Positions 4,475-10,413 of a stretch of DNA of 20,462 nt are shown in pieces. The notes beneath the pieces were generated by a model. That model did no database searches, was not told the origin of the DNA, and was given only the letters and a program-made list of their open reading frames with translations. Position 1 is the stretch's first letter. Each line of letters starts with the position of its first letter. Source of the DNA: a virus; IMG/VR virus record IMGVR_UViG_3300045974_000153, positions 1 through 20,462 of that record; one strand, given 5' to 3'. The translations under genes were made by a program, and so were the position numbers.

Positions 4475-4501
4475 GCGGCCCTTCCGTTGACCGAGGTAGC
4501 A

Positions 4502-6451
4502 ATGTCCGAGGGCTCGCCGACAATCTGGGGTCGGCTGGCGGCGCCATTCCGGCGTGCGTTTGGCGCCTCGATTCGGCCCGACGACCCGCGCCGCTACCAG
4601 CAGTGGGTGCAGCTCCTCGACCAGCCGGCCGGCGTCACGATCACACCGGACAACGCGCTCGAGATCAGCGCGGTCTGGGCCTGCGTGATGGCGATCTCGA
4701 ACGCGTTGGCGCCAGCGCAGTGGAAGATCCTCACGACGACCCCCGAAGGGCGCAAGGAAGCGCTGCCCGACGACCCGCTGGCCTACCTGCTCAACGTCCG
4801 GCCGAACTCGGACATGACGTCGATCAGCCTGCGGTACGCGCTGCTCATGGCGCGGCTTACCTGGGGTAACGGATACGCGGCGATCACGAAGAGCGCGAGC
4901 GGCAAGATCACCGAGCTGTGGCCGATGCTCCCGCACCGCACGATCCCGACGCGAGACCGCGAGACCGGAGCGCTCTACTACGAGTATCACCAGCTCGAGG
5001 GCGGCATCGTCCGGCTCGAGCAGGACGAGGTCTTCCACGTCAAGGGGCCGGGCATCTCGGGCCTGCTCGGCGAGAACGTCGTTGCTCGAGCCGCGAAGTC
5101 GATGAGCCTCGCGGCGGCGGCCGAGAGGTTCGCGAGTACGTACTTCGGCAACAACACGATCGTCGGCGGCGTCCTGAGCGCGCCGTTCAAGTTCCCCCGC
5201 GACGCGGACGGCAAGAGCGCCGTCGCCGAGCGCCTGCGCGACGACTGGGCGGCGATGCACCAGGGGCCGAACAAGGCTTGGCGCCCGGCCATCCTCGAGA
5301 ACGGCATGAAGTGGGAGCCGTTCACGACGAACGCGACAGACGCGCAGCTCGTCGAGGCGCGGAGGCACCAGATCGAGGAGATCGCGCGCTGGTACGGAGT
5401 TCCGGGACACCTCATCGGCGTCGCCGGCTCCTCGCAGGGCTACGGAACGAACCTCGAAGAGTTGTCCCTCTCTTTCAACCGCCACACGCTGACCCCTCTC
5501 TGCCGCGAGATGGAGCAGGAGGCGGACTACAAGCTGCTCGCGCAGCGCGCGCCATGGCGGCACACGCTCATCGACCTGAAGCCGCTCACGCACGGCGACG
5601 CGGTGTCGAGGGCGAACAGCTACAAGCTGCACCGGGACATGGGCGTCCTCACGGTCAACGAGATCCGCGAGGCCGAAGGCTGGAACCACATCGGCGCTGA
5701 CGGCGACGTGCGCGTCGTGCCGCTCGGCTACCAGACGTTCGAGCAACTCGTGGCGCCGCAGCCCAAGCTGATGGCGGCGACGGGCCCGCAGATCGCGCAG
5801 ATGATGGCGATCCTGCAATCCGTCGTCGATGGCCACCTGCCCGCCGACTCGGCGCACGCGCTCATGGTGGTATCGTTCCCGGGGCTCGCCGAGGAGCAGA
5901 TCGCGGCGATGCTGGACGGGCTCGAGGAGTTCGAGGCGGAGCCTATCCCTGCCCCGCCGATGCAGCTACCGCCGCCCCCGCCGGCCGACGTCGAGGACGC
6001 GGAGATCGTCGGCGAGGATCCTGGCGCCGACGGCGTCGCAGTCTCCGCCGTTGCGAGGCTGTTCGGCGTGGCGTTCGAGCGCTACGTGCGGCGCCTGTCG
6101 AACCGAGAGGCCGACCTGCGCCGCGGCGGTGCCGACGAGGAGCGCGTGTCGGCAGCGCTCACCGAAGAGCGCGAGCGACTGCGCGGCTCGTGGCTCACCG
6201 ACGAGACCCGCGACGCGCGCGAGCTGGCGGCCGAACTCGGCGCGACGCTCACGACGGCACGGCTCGTGGCCGCGCTCACGGCGATCGACGGCGGCGAGGC
6301 ACCGCGAGAGGCGGCTGCGCGGCTCGTGCGCGACGTGGTCCAGCGGGCGCCGGCGAAGGCCACGGCGACGAAGAAGTCTACCAGCAAGCTGGTCACCTTC
6401 ATCCGAGACGCCGACGGGCAGGTTGTCGGCGCCACATTGCTCGAGGGATAG
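4502..6451 (+). CDS. Portal protein, HK97 family, with a C-terminal extension
   Basis: I take the ATG at 4502 because GAGG lies at 4493-4496; an in-frame TTG at 4487 would add five residues. The product has 649 residues. The first ~420 form the HK97-type portal: ISAVWACVMAISNALA, the clip/wing segment with NVRPNSDM and RLTWGNGYAAI, ELWPMLPHRT, and the stem helices with IARWYGVPGHLIG and LEELSLSFNRHTLTPL. Residues ~482-498 are a proline-rich linker. After it comes a charged helical region (~510-620) and a short beta tail with TFIRDADGQVVGA. At roughly 650 residues it is longer than the ~420-residue HK97 portal. The ring of 12 copies is the DNA entry pore and the head-tail contact. Confidence 0.93.
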   Translation: MSEGSPTIWGRLAAPFRRAFGASIRPDDPRRYQQWVQLLDQPAGVTITPDNALEISAVWACVMAISNALAPAQWKILTTTPEGRKEALPDDPLAYLLNVRPNSDMTSISLRYALLMARLTWGNGYAAITKSASGKITELWPMLPHRTIPTRDRETGALYYEYHQLEGGIVRLEQDEVFHVKGPGISGLLGENVVARAAKSMSLAAAAERFASTYFGNNTIVGGVLSAPFKFPRDADGKSAVAERLRDDWAAMHQGPNKAWRPAILENGMKWEPFTTNATDAQLVEARRHQIEEIARWYGVPGHLIGVAGSSQGYGTNLEELSLSFNRHTLTPLCREMEQEADYKLLAQRAPWRHTLIDLKPLTHGDAVSRANSYKLHRDMGVLTVNEIREAEGWNHIGADGDVRVVPLGYQTFEQLVAPQPKLMAATGPQIAQMMAILQSVVDGHLPADSAHALMVVSFPGLAEEQIAAMLDGLEEFEAEPIPAPPMQLPPPPPADVEDAEIVGEDPGADGVAVSAVARLFGVAFERYVRRLSNREADLRRGGADEERVSAALTEERERLRGSWLTDETRDARELAAELGATLTTARLVAALTAIDGGEAPREAAARLVRDVVQRAPAKATATKKSTSKLVTFIRDADGQVVGATLLEG

Positions 6452-6454
6452 CAA

Positions 6455-6919
6455 ATGGCGATCACCACCGCGCTCTGCAACTCGTACAAGCAGGAGGTTC
6501 TCGACGGCGTCCATGCCGCCGCGGACGTCTACAAGATCCTGCTCATCAAGGCGTCCGAGGCTGGCACCTACAGCAAGGCAACGACCAACGTCGGTACGCC
6601 CGGCACCGGCTCGCCGACCACCGCGAATGTTGGCACGGACGAGGCGGCAGGCACCGGATACACCACGGGCGGGCTCGTGCTCACCGGCTACACGAACACG
6701 CTCACAACCGACACGGCCTCGATCGACTGGGCCGATGCCGTGTGGGCGACGGCGACGCTCAGCGCGGACGGGGCGATCATCTACAACTCGAGCAAGGCGA
6801 ACCGCGCGGTCTGCGTGATCGCCTTCGTGGACGGCGGCGCGATCCCGGTGACCTCGACGGGCGCCAACTTCACCGTCCCGATCCCCAGCTCCGAAGTCGG
6901 CCAGATCCGGCTGACCTAA
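6455..6919 (+). CDS. Small beta-rich phage structural protein
   Basis: The 154-residue protein starts at ATG 6455, 3 bases after portal, with GAGGGAT as ribosome binding site. It opens MAITTALCNSYKQEVLDGVH and later has GYTTGGLVLTGYTNTL, DTASIDWADAVWATATLSADGAIIYN and VCVIAFVDGG. From memory this matches a widespread set of phage proteins of unknown function that begin with an ALC.S.K.E.L.G.H motif and form beta sandwiches. They are found next to head or tail genes, so a virion surface or decoration role is likely but not proven. It has no signal peptide and no catalytic motif. Confidence 0.7.
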   Translation: MAITTALCNSYKQEVLDGVHAAADVYKILLIKASEAGTYSKATTNVGTPGTGSPTTANVGTDEAAGTGYTTGGLVLTGYTNTLTTDTASIDWADAVWATATLSADGAIIYNSSKANRAVCVIAFVDGGAIPVTSTGANFTVPIPSSEVGQIRLT

Positions 6920-6922
6920 GCC

Positions 6923-7222
6923 GTGACCACGCCCTACGCGAACACGGCCATCCAGACTGCCCAGGTCGCTCTCTCTGCGGGGACGGCGACCAAGATGGGC
7001 AGCGGCGCGTCCGGAGTGCCGCTCGCCTCCCGCCTCTACTGGCGTGGCATCAGCCTCGACCCCCAGGCGCAGGTCTACCTGGGGCCGCTCGGGGTGACCG
7101 TCTCCACCGGCTACCCGATGCAGGTCGGCATCCCCGAGGAGCGCCCCTACGGACCGGCCATCGACATCTACGCGGTGAGCGCGACCGCCACCACGCTCTA
7201 CGTTGAGGAGGTGTCGGGATGA
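6923..7222 (+). CDS. Small beta-rich phage protein, probably virion-associated
   Basis: The GTG start at 6923 gives 99 residues. The centre reads VYLGPLGVTVSTGYPMQVG and the end IDIYAVSATATTLYVEEVSG. The pattern 'vYlG..GVt..tGypl...' followed by 'iyavsata..lyv.e' is common in short phage proteins coded near capsid genes and predicted to form a small beta barrel. Its function is not established. The last codon overlaps the next gene by 4 bases (ATGA), and the end of this gene carries that gene's very strong ribosome binding site, so the two are translationally coupled. Confidence 0.65.
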   Translation: MTTPYANTAIQTAQVALSAGTATKMGSGASGVPLASRLYWRGISLDPQAQVYLGPLGVTVSTGYPMQVGIPEERPYGPAIDIYAVSATATTLYVEEVSG

Positions 7223-8160
7223 CCGGCCTACTGCTCGGATTACTCCTCGCCGCGGTCACTCCGGTGCAGGTGCCTGACCTGATCACGCCGGTCGCCACGC
7301 TCTCCGCTGCGTGCGCGTCGGGATCTGCTTGCCCAGCGAACTCGACAGCAGCGGTCGCGCTCGCGGGTCACAACTCGATCTCCGTCAACTTCACCACATC
7401 GACCTCGCCCGTCCTGACGGTCGTAGCCGAGTGCAGCCACGACGGCGGCCTGACCTACATGGTCGGCCCCGGCTCGCCGTCGAGCGGCACCGTCTGGCTC
7501 GAGGACGACAACGGCTCTTTCGCGCAGTCGCTCACGTCGCCCTCGGCGGGCCGCAGCTACAATATGGTGGGCATCGAAGAGGGCGTCACGCACTGCCGTG
7601 CGCGCGTCTCTGCGTACACCTCTGGCTCGTCCACGCTGACGCTGTCTGCTGCGCTCTTCGCTGGCAGCCTGCCGCACCTGGCAGCACCGGGCGCGACGAG
7701 CAGCTCACCGCCATCCGTCGCCATGATCGGTGCGCAGGACTCGATCGCCAGCACGACAGCGCGAGCGCTGCGGGCTGATGCGAATGGGGCGCTCTACGTG
7801 CGGCAGGGCTCGCCCGGATCTGAGTGGCAGCTTTTCGCGTCGTCATCCGCTGTGACGGCTACCTCGACAGCGACCGCCGCGCTGCCGGGAGTGGGGCTGT
7901 CGTACTACGTCACCGACCTGACCATCGGGTCGTCGATCATCTCGACTGCCGCGAACTTCATCCAGCTTCAGAGCTGCACTACAGCCAACTGCGCAGGAAC
8001 CTGTACTCCGATCTGGGGCGGCTATGCCCAGGCGGCGTTTGCGCAGATCGTCGCCACCTTCACGAAGCCGCTGAAGGCCCCGGCCAACACCTGTCTCTGC
8101 TGGATGACTCCAGGCGCAGGCAGCAGACAGGTGTACATGAGCGGCTTTATCGCGCCCTAG
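7219..8160 (+). CDS. Cysteine-rich two-domain beta protein with hydrophobic N-terminus
   Basis: The start at 7219 is well supported by GAGGAGGTG (7205-7213). The 313-residue product begins MTGLLLGLLLAAVTPVQ, a hydrophobic stretch like a signal peptide but without a positive charge in front. Residues ~42-155 form one probable beta sandwich, with AECSHDGGLTYM and HCRARVSAYTSGSSTLTL, like the 'SxDGG...vRvr.s.ytsG' domains of phage fibres. After a Ser/Pro linker, ALRADANGALYVRQ leads into a second beta domain (about 205-313) ending QVYMSGFIAP. Nine cysteines, including SCTTANCAGTC and CLC, are far more than its neighbours have and point to disulfides. A virion fibre or surface protein is most likely; an exported protein is the alternative. 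Confidence 0.65.
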   Translation: MTGLLLGLLLAAVTPVQVPDLITPVATLSAACASGSACPANSTAAVALAGHNSISVNFTTSTSPVLTVVAECSHDGGLTYMVGPGSPSSGTVWLEDDNGSFAQSLTSPSAGRSYNMVGIEEGVTHCRARVSAYTSGSSTLTLSAALFAGSLPHLAAPGATSSSPPSVAMIGAQDSIASTTARALRADANGALYVRQGSPGSEWQLFASSSAVTATSTATAALPGVGLSYYVTDLTIGSSIISTAANFIQLQSCTTANCAGTCTPIWGGYAQAAFAQIVATFTKPLKAPANTCLCWMTPGAGSRQVYMSGFIAP

Positions 8161-8169
8161 GGGTGACAG

Positions 8170-9567
8170 ATGGCCTTCCTGCGCCGCCGTAGTACAGCGC
8201 TCGTCGCGGCCATCCTCGACCCGGCGGGATCGGCGGGCGGCGCGTCGGCATCCCGCGGGGCATCCCCCGTCAGCGGCGCACTTTCGCTGCCGACCGGGAA
8301 GGCCACAGGCGCAGCCAGTCGCGGAGCATCTCCGCTCTCGGCGGCGCTGGCTGCGCCCACAGGCAAGGCGACAGGAGCCGCCTCGCGCGGAGCGGCGGCG
8401 CTCTCCGCAGCACTGGCCTCCGGAGCCGGCAAGGCGTCCGGAGCTGCGTCCAGAGGTGCGTCGGCGCTTTCTGGTGCACTCGCACTCGCGAGCGGGAAGG
8501 CGACAGGCGGAAGCGGCGTGTCGCGCGGCGCATCGCCGGTCAACGGGGCGCTCGTAGTATCCGGTGGTCGTGCGACCGGCGGCGCATCGCGGGGAGCCTC
8601 CGCGCCGTCCGCCTCTCTGGCTCTGCCGACCGGCAAGGCCACGGGAGCGGCGTCCCGGGGAGCCGCTGCACTCGCCGGTGCACTCGCCGCAGCAGCGGGC
8701 CGCGCGACGGGGGCCGCCTCTCGCGGTGCCTCGCCCCTGGCCGTTGCTCTGGCGCTCTCGCCCGGCCTGGCTGCCGGCGGGTCCGGCGGCGTTTCGCGGG
8801 GCGCCACTCCAGTCACAGGCGCCCTGGCTCTCGCCTCCGGCAAGGCCACTGGCGCCAGCCTCCGCGGCGCCTCTGCGCTCTCGGCTGCATTGGCCCTGGC
8901 GTCAGGCCGCGCGACCGGACAGGCGTCGCGTGCGGCCGCCGCAGATGCCGTGTCGGCGAGCGTGGCCGGAGGTGCAGCTCGTGGCGGCGCAGCTCGTGGC
9001 GCGAGTCCAGTTCAGGCCACGGCGAGCGTGCCCGCGGGGCGCGCCTACGGCGATCCGGTAGCAGCCACGGCCTACGCCGCGCCGGTCTCGGCGAGCTTGA
9101 GCCTGCCGGCAGGTGCGGCCCTCGTGACGGTGCCGCAAGCGGGAGGTGGTGCAGGCCGGTGGCCGATGCCGGCTGCTTGGCACGTCCGGCGGGTCGAGTT
9201 GCCGCTGCGTCGGCCCGCGGGCGTGCCGGAGCCGGCAAGTGTGGCGGCCGTGGCGAGCGGCGGGGCGTGCGAGGCCAGGGGTGAGGTGGCGCATGGCGGG
9301 GCGAGGGGTGGCGCCGTTGTCCGTCGCGCTCCTGTCTCCGCGGACATGGCGCACTCGCCTGGTGGCGCATTCGGAGAGGCGACAGCCGGCGGCCGCTCGG
9401 TGGCGGCCCTTGTGGCTGTCGCTGGCGGGAGTGCCTCCGGGGCGGCCGCCGGAAATGCACGGGCCCTCGTTGGTTCTCTCTCGACCGCGAGAGGCAGGGC
9501 GCGAGGCGGACGCAACCCGTCTGACGAAGATCTCGCGCTGATGTTGCTCATGCTGCACGCGGCCTAG
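8170..9567 (+). CDS. Ala/Gly/Ser-rich 22-residue repeat protein, candidate head fibre
   Basis: The ATG at 8170 follows GGGGTGA. The 465-residue product is built from units that start at residues 28, 50, 72, 94, 118, 140, 162, 184, 209, 231, 253 and about 275, a spacing of 22 with three slightly longer steps caused by an extra G/S/V insertion. The unit reads roughly SRGASP-hydrophobic-S-GALAL-x-x-GKATG-AA. Degenerate units return near the C-terminus (GGRSVAALVAVAGGSASG, GNARALVGSLSTARGRARGG). The N-terminus (MAFLRRRSTALVAAILDP) and the C-terminus (PSDEDLALMLLMLHAA) are unique. It has one cysteine, almost no acidic residues in the repeats and many Lys/Arg. The alternating small/hydrophobic pattern suggests a beta-solenoid or trimeric fibre. 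I do not recognise a named family. Confidence 0.75.
   Translation: MAFLRRRSTALVAAILDPAGSAGGASASRGASPVSGALSLPTGKATGAASRGASPLSAALAAPTGKATGAASRGAAALSAALASGAGKASGAASRGASALSGALALASGKATGGSGVSRGASPVNGALVVSGGRATGGASRGASAPSASLALPTGKATGAASRGAAALAGALAAAAGRATGAASRGASPLAVALALSPGLAAGGSGGVSRGATPVTGALALASGKATGASLRGASALSAALALASGRATGQASRAAAADAVSASVAGGAARGGAARGASPVQATASVPAGRAYGDPVAATAYAAPVSASLSLPAGAALVTVPQAGGGAGRWPMPAAWHVRRVELPLRRPAGVPEPASVAAVASGGACEARGEVAHGGARGGAVVRRAPVSADMAHSPGGAFGEATAGGRSVAALVAVAGGSASGAAAGNARALVGSLSTARGRARGGRNPSDEDLALMLLMLHAA
8251..9129 (+). repeat. Tandem 66-bp coding repeats (22 codons each)
   Basis: About thirteen units of roughly 66 bp encode the repeats of the protein at 8170-9567. Unit starts are 8251, 8317, 8383, 8449, 8521, 8587, 8653, 8719, 8794, 8860, 8926 and about 8992. 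The units keep their protein pattern while third codon positions differ freely (GCA/GCG/GCC/GCT, TCT/TCG/AGT, ACA/ACG/ACC), so the copies are old or have been diversified, not freshly duplicated. Confidence 0.8.
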
Positions 9568-9582
9568 GCCGCAGGAGAAACC

Positions 9583-10413
9583 ATGCTGCCGAAGGGACTG
9601 AAGCGCGCGCGCGAACTCGCGGCGCAGATGCGCGGAGCGCGGCCGGGGGCGCAGGTGGTCAGTCGCGGCTTCCGCATGGAGTCGCCAGCGCCCGGCGCGC
9701 CAGCCGTGCTCTACATCTACGACGAGATCGGCAAGGATCCGTGGGACGGCTCCGGCATCTGCGCGAGCGACGTGATCGCCGCGATCGCCCAGGCGAAGTC
9801 TGCGCGCGCCACCTCGCTCGAGGTGCGCGTGCTGAGCGGTGGCGGTGATGCCTTCGAGGGCGTCGGCATCTACGAGGCGCTCAAGCGCTGCGAGTTGCCG
9901 ACGACGGCCTACAACGACGGCCTCGCGGCCTCCGCGGCGAGCTACGTCCTCCTCGGCTGCAACCGCGTGGTGAGCGCTCCGACGGCGACGACGATGGTTC
10001 ACTGCGCCTGGACGCTGGCGATGGGCAACGCCAAGGACATGCGCGACACCGCGGGCGTGCTCGACGTGCTCGACAAGGCCATCTGCGGCATCTACGCGAC
10101 CGAGGCCGGCGGCACCGCCGACGAGTGGCTCACCCGCATGAGCGCCGAGACGTGGCTCTCGGCCGACGAGTGCAAGGCGATCGGCTTCTGCGACGAGATC
10201 GCCCGAGCAGACGACGACAACGACGCAGGCCAGGAGCCCGACGGCGACCCCGACGATGCTCCGGCGGCCGCGCTCTGGCGGATGCTCGAAGAGACGCAGG
10301 CGCGCAACACCGCGTTCGCGAACCGCGCCCGGCTCCGCGCCGCGGCGGACACCTTCACCCGGGCCAGCCCGGGCAGCACGACGCGCAGCGGCCAGTCCGC
10401 GCGCCAGCAGTAG
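9583..10413 (+). CDS. ClpP-like prohead maturation protease
   Basis: The ATG at 9583 has AGGAGA at 9572-9577. The 276-residue protein has the ClpP fold of phage head proteases: VLYIYDEIG (42-50), VRVLSGGGDAFEGVGIYEAL (81-100) forming the oxyanion strand, DGLAASAAS with the nucleophile Ser117, and MVHCAW with His140. Then come GNAKDMRDTAG and SAETWLSADECKAIGFCDEI (187-206), where the third catalytic acid is expected. Residues ~209-276 are an acidic then basic disordered tail. It should cleave the N-terminal region of the capsid protein after prohead assembly. In canonical HK97 gene order it would follow portal directly; here four genes lie between. Confidence 0.92.
   Translation: MLPKGLKRARELAAQMRGARPGAQVVSRGFRMESPAPGAPAVLYIYDEIGKDPWDGSGICASDVIAAIAQAKSARATSLEVRVLSGGGDAFEGVGIYEALKRCELPTTAYNDGLAASAASYVLLGCNRVVSAPTATTMVHCAWTLAMGNAKDMRDTAGVLDVLDKAICGIYATEAGGTADEWLTRMSAETWLSADECKAIGFCDEIARADDDNDAGQEPDGDPDDAPAAALWRMLEETQARNTAFANRARLRAAADTFTRASPGSTTRSGQSARQQ

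Follow-up and report, generated by a model that had tools for sequence, protein, structure and literature searches.

The window analysed here is an entire viral contig record (IMGVR_UViG_3300045974_000153; 20,462 bases). It encodes an HNH endonuclease, a terminase small subunit, an antirepressor-like gene, a terminase large subunit and the portal, followed by four genes referred to below as the cassette, a ClpP-type protease, an HK97-type capsid protein, a head-tail adaptor, a tape measure and a DUF2460 tail gene. The antirepressor-like gene (1766-2743; phrog_524, E = 3.6e-17) lies between the genes for the small and large terminase subunits. The four cassette genes occupy the 3131 bases from the portal stop (6451) to the protease start (9583), hereafter the slot (Table 1). 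The last of them, with AGGGG read a few bases upstream of its ATG, encodes the repeat protein that is the subject of this study, and the reading frame of 465 residues described in the initial annotation is indeed present. Its placement between the portal and protease genes needs refinement: the gene lies inside the gap and adjoins the protease gene, but three genes (starting at 6455, 6923 and 7219) separate it from the portal gene.

Table 1. Genes of the portal-protease interval and segments of the repeat protein (L060 and L141 are viral contigs introduced in the text)
Feature	Position	Strand	Basis
Portal, left slot border	4487..6451	+	PF04860, E = 3.7e-82
phrog_644 family protein, cassette gene 1	6455..6919	+	phrog_644, E = 6.8e-13
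99-aa cassette gene	6923..7222	+	76% identical copy in L141 (166,843-base contig)
313-aa cassette gene, hydrophobic N-terminus	7219..8160	+	family matches all sub-threshold
Repeat-protein gene, 465 aa, ATG start	8170..9567	+	sole stop-free frame
Non-repeated N-terminal 27 residues (MAFLRRRSTALVAAIL...)	8170..8250	+	lag analysis; unlike the L060 N-terminus
Twelve 22-residue units, residues 28-296, consensus SRGASPLSGALALPTGKATGAA	8251..9057	+	lag identity, unit alignment
Degenerate repeat continuation, residues 297-447	9058..9510	+	circular profile z 7.8; reversed sequence nearly equal
C-terminal tail, acidic then hydrophobic, residues 448-465 (RNPSDEDLALMLLMLHAA)	9511..9564	+	sequence; helix predicted at 452-464 with low confidence
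ClpP-type head maturation protease, right slot border	9583..10413	+	PF00574, E = 9e-21; phrog_94, E = 1.6e-57

The 22-residue repeat and its homologue

The units start at residues 28, 50, 72, 94, 118, 140, 162, 184, 209, 231, 253 and 275. Successive starts lie 22 residues apart, with two exceptions (24 and 25) in which a short insert of G/S/V stands ahead of SRGA. Identity at lag 22 over residues 21-300 is 0.461, against a composition expectation of 0.185 and no more than 0.288 in 1000 shuffles (best lag between 10 and 60), so that the earlier count of at least twelve SRGASP-type units could be confirmed as twelve. Owing to divergence between the units at the DNA level, Tandem Repeats Finder detects no more than 2.2 copies. 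The view that such units fill most of the protein needs qualification, as the clear units cover about 58% of it. Residues 300-465 can be scored as degenerate units (0 of 200 shuffles reach their score), but the reversed sequence scores nearly alike (49.0 versus 57.5).

Within the twelve units R2, A4, G16, A18 and G20 are invariant, G3 is present in 11 of 12 and a basic residue (K or R) at position 17 in 10 of 12, while mean hydrophobicity peaks at positions 7, 11 and 13. Such alternation would suit a beta strand with small inward-facing residues. The repeat is basic and nearly free of acids, as had been noted previously: residues 28-300 contain 6 K and 17 R (23 K+R) versus 2 D and no E, and the whole protein has 41 K+R and 12 D+E. 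A, G, S, T and P together make up 69% of its residues.

For the full protein, aligned with its homologue from contig L060 (see below), AlphaFold2 returned a beta-solenoid with strands between residues 34 and 311 (mean pLDDT 38.9, pTM 0.34), and a 113-residue fragment of five units, with four alignment rows, reached a mean pLDDT of 41.7. Both models stay under pLDDT 60 nearly throughout, and AlphaFold2 is reported to be biased towards beta-solenoids when given repeats, and such a fold can be wrong even when predicted with confidence (PMC11795689). When the model of the full protein, with its mean pLDDT of 38.9, was compared with known structures using VIA-align, the top matches were curli CsgA (8c50; Z 22.0, rmsd 9.1, 292 residues aligned), PfbA (3zpp; Z 16.9, rmsd 3.6), AlgE4 and several phage tailspikes (Z 12.4-15.6); a BFVD structure search with the same low-confidence model gave nothing significant (best E = 0.085). 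The low confidence of both predictions, the abundance of small residues and proline and the tolerance of short inserts between units are also what one would expect of a virion linker or brush rich in Ala, Gly and Ser that is flexible, for the most part disordered and free of any solenoid; what the repeat preserves would then be spacing and charge, not a fold. We regard this as unlikely: six unit columns (R2, G3, A4, G16, A18 and G20) are identical in 11 or 12 of the 12 units, and hydrophobic residues recur at positions 7, 11 and 13, a patterning that exceeds the needs of a simple linker.

Direct searches of viral contigs with the repeat protein detected no relative, tblastn no phage match, and a profile no match in viral or genome contigs. 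Neither Pfam (up to E = 0.1) nor PHROG or NCBIfam contains a match, nothing credible was retrieved among PDB sequences, and Peptidase_S74 and tail-fibre PHROG domains are absent according to the Pfam and PHROG scans. Literature on this 22-residue repeat was not found at the level of titles and abstracts. The unit belongs to no database family. One true homologue was nevertheless reached through the neighbourhood of phrog_644 relatives. It is a protein of 251 residues at L060:7466-8221 (IMG/VR 3300045993_000681), a contig whose phrog_644 protein is, among the 80 loci kept, the closest to that of the window (64% identity). The two repeats belong to one family, matching position by position in a single register: amino acid identity between L060 and window units is 0.441 in that register and 0.098-0.304 in the other 21. 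The profile of the window units scores the L060 protein at 137.5 with nine matches, compared to at most 25.5 for 2000 shuffles and 4.0 for the reversed sequence; BLASTP links the two proteins at E = 1e-05. The repeat is therefore present in a second phage contig. The L060 protein used as a query retrieved only itself and no phage record. Like its counterpart in the window, the L060 protein has the 22-residue unit in register, is encoded downstream of phrog_644 by a gene with lowered GC3 and is poor in acids, having 11 K+R, 2 H and no D or E. It differs in length, in its hydrophobic N-terminus and in its C-terminus; the suggestion that a conserved C-terminus could serve as a cap thus finds no support in the sole homologue found. 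Gene order in the L060 contig is also different, and no portal-ClpP slot lies within view.

Comparison of the twelve window units codon by codon gave agreement of 62%, 74% and 31% at positions 1, 2 and 3, and of 56% for amino acids. Fourfold sites are equal in 235 of 748 unit comparisons (0.314), versus 0.331 expected from the gene's own codon usage and 0.468 from that of the other genes. The L060 units behave alike (0.65, 0.73 and 0.33 for the three codon positions; 93 of 299 fourfold sites equal). Since the first two codon positions agree and the third does not, selection keeps the protein pattern and not the DNA; the units are old and maintained at the protein level. A DNA-level repeat produced by slippage is ruled out, third positions being unrelated between units, and so is antisense coding, because the sense frame alone is stop-free in both homologues and the flanking genes run in the same direction.

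Both repeat genes have a flattened codon usage: GC3 is 0.733 in the window gene versus 0.899 expected (the lowest of 500 simulations gave 0.854), and 0.777 versus 0.913 in L060. Significant flattening is absent from five repeat genes of AT-rich contigs (L066, L098, L100, L129 and L138), L129 and L138 showing the reverse. Codon scrambling that avoids recombination was not adopted as the explanation, as there is no deficit of exact repeats relative to synonymously shuffled sequences. The low GC3 could equally well reflect an upper limit to total GC (0.76 in both repeat genes) or a foreign origin.

phrog_644 and its companions

Relatives of the phrog_644 gene were found at 173 places in viral contigs, 80 of which were kept, and none was found in genome contigs. 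Since the contigs are redundant, the figures below count loci, not independent events. The next gene is visible at 76 of the 80 loci, and in 73 of these 76 its product starts with a shared fibre N-terminus (KDRVKE or ADRVKV; 73 was read off the list, and a stricter pattern gives 66 of 80). Among these proteins, L066:2820-5801 has matches to tail-fibre PHROGs (E = 2.9e-50) and also carries peptidase S74, which is present in L134 as well. The remaining three of the 76 loci (L060, L061 and L062) do not share that N-terminus; in the latter two a protein with a 21/22-residue repeat (lags 42, 22 and 20) directly follows phrog_644. At 9 of the 80 loci there are 22-residue-repeat proteins starting with MLGF, located downstream of the fibre genes (L066, L083, L088, L092, L098, L100, L107, L129 and L138); the three of them that were scanned (L066, L098 and L138) have no Pfam or PHROG match. 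L088:8409-9299, also downstream of the fibre gene, consists of near-perfect 10-residue TTTTFNTS-like repeats, and its DNA repeats are recent (the longest exact one is 49 bases). A single PDB chain retrieved with the phrog_644 profile (E = 0.058) was discarded.

A comparable arrangement was observed in phage DSL-LC04, where an adaptor gene is followed by a small gene, phrog_644 (E = 2.5e-15), a 22-residue-repeat protein, a chaperone-domain protein and a putative lectin. The DSL-LC04 repeat protein (WJZ48131; hypothetical, 376 aa) can be likened to that of the window by its period of 22 and its position immediately after phrog_644. It differs in being acidic (pI 4.05), in its valine/glycine unit and in belonging to an adhesin module with a lectin gene.

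The window protein and the L061/L062-type and MLGF-type repeat proteins thus have phrog_644 in the same module. Comparison of the window unit with both repeat types by hhalign yielded nothing, and its profile has no match in L062, L098, L129, L138, L066 or L100 (circular profile z from -1.2 to 2.1 across seven proteins). L061 gave the weak value of 2.1, which 8 of 200 shuffles reach. The L061/L062 and MLGF types do resemble one another (hhalign P = 4e-05). Linkage to phrog_644 is therefore common to several repeat types, the window unit having no clear sequence match among them. For phrog_644, a phage family without an assigned role, these associations provide a function to look for.

Occupants of the portal-protease slot

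Among 55 ClpP relatives, 48 loci, from distant relatives of the window, show both the portal and the ClpP gene, and in 45 of them the two frames abut or overlap. The gaps in L021, L037 and L054 contain short ORFs, an HNH-like ORF and a reverse-transcriptase-like ORF (labels assigned by eye). At L054:4200-7001 the reverse-transcriptase-like ORF (4989-6779) sits inside the ClpP gene in a group II intron-like arrangement, again labelled by eye.

Relatives of the window's capsid protein were found at 11 loci (32-51% identity). L144 and L153 end before the slot and were dropped, leaving nine loci, which represent seven lineages because a stretch of 5300 bases is the same in L145, L146 and L148. The slot is empty in three of the seven lineages (L143, L149 and L152; the L152 protease was identified by eye) and holds one long protein in the other four. 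That of L145 (307 aa) is fibre-like, with DG-rich segments and weak matches to portal-extension PHROGs; that of L147 (211 aa) is collagen-like (PF01391, E = 8.3e-16; tail-fibre PHROG, E = 1.2e-20); and those of L150 and L151 (524 and 583 aa) are coiled-coil-like with HTH-like ends. The latter two (L150:897-2471 and L151:5532-7283) have C-terminal HTH_28 matches (E = 9e-4 and 5.2e-5) under the curated cut-off. By tblastn none of the window's four slot genes has a match at the capsid-relative loci. Since the collagen-, fibre- and coiled-coil-like occupants lack similarity to that of the window, the slot accepts unrelated, mostly rod-like proteins. Rhizobium phage 16-3, to which a capsid fibre gene is attributed (PMC11409702), has overlapping portal and protease genes, and its fibre gene must therefore lie outside this slot.

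The position in the head module and the excess of K+R over D+E (41 to 12) might instead indicate a basic protein inside the head, bound to the DNA packaged there or leaving with it at ejection. This appears very improbable, as each 22-residue unit has only some two basic residues and the slot proteins of the relatives are rod-like and, by charge count, acidic or near neutral.

The 99-aa gene matches a single contig (L141), in a 12,294-base stretch of 59% GC, and no phage record, whereas the 313-aa gene yielded no relative. With 76% identity between the two copies of the 99-aa gene and at most 51% between the window's capsid protein and its relatives, this gene has probably moved after the phages diverged. 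Signal-peptide-like hydrophobic starts, recognized by eye and hydropathy, are present in the window (7219-8160) and in L141 (7094-8167 and 8446-9723), which is odd for virion proteins.

A candidate virion fibre

The reading we favour, with moderate confidence, is that the repeat protein is a virion fibre or rod encoded in an exchangeable fibre slot. The fibre role put forward earlier fits the comparisons, fibrous proteins occupying the slot in four of the seven closest lineages and phrog_644 accompanying fibre genes at other loci. An elongated shaft would be formed by the 22-residue coils, some twelve of them clear and several degenerate, and the lineage would use the portal-protease gap for exchangeable fibrous proteins, with the companion genes, phrog_644 first, probably providing attachment or tip parts. 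The rod would most likely stand on the head or on the portal/neck and make weak, reversible contact with the cell. Invariant R2 and K/R17, combined with few acids, could create rows of positive charge suited to acidic polymers of the cell surface; this putative polyanion binding is suggested by charge.

Regarding location, the slot position would favour head or neck, whereas the company of phrog_644 would favour the tail. Tail-fibre genes are the neighbours of most phrog_644 modules, which makes a role on the tail side no less possible than one on the head. In one specific form of it, which we find rather doubtful, the protein would be the shaft of a host-binding tail fibre whose genes were relocated into the head module. 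Elsewhere phrog_644 modules border on adaptor, S74 or lectin genes or come after a large tail gene, and the window stops short of its own tail-tip genes; against this, the slot already holds fibrous proteins in relatives in which tblastn detects no phrog_644. The fibre reading also agrees with the location of the gene within the head module, between portal and ClpP, as for a head fibre. If it is correct, related phages interchange structurally unrelated rods in the portal-protease gap, which is a testable statement on the swapping of head or neck fibres. A far-reaching version, to which we assign little likelihood, would make the protein the first of a new fibre class, built as a narrow beta-solenoid that lacks acids and has an Ala/Leu core and two continuous ladders of Arg and Lys. 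Such a fibre would tether virions to acidic polymers, interchange with collagen and coiled-coil rods in the slot and belong to a phrog_644 cassette exchanged between unrelated phage types.

Head fibres have precedents. Capsid fibres of phage 7-7-1 contact flagella (PMC12796354), and phi29 gp8.5 and the collagen-like SPP1 gp12, a predicted trimeric capsid spike, are thought to aid adsorption (PMC7602432). phi29 gp8.5 is a repetitive head fibre (PMC7602432), to which the window protein, as a putative fibre, can be likened, but it is built of coiled-coil helices. The collagen-like protein of L147 is a repetitive rod in the same slot; it and SPP1 gp12 have Gly-X-Y repeats, which the window protein lacks (no PF01391 in Pfam up to E = 0.1). 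What sets the present case apart from known head fibres is the unit, the lack of acids and the cassette.
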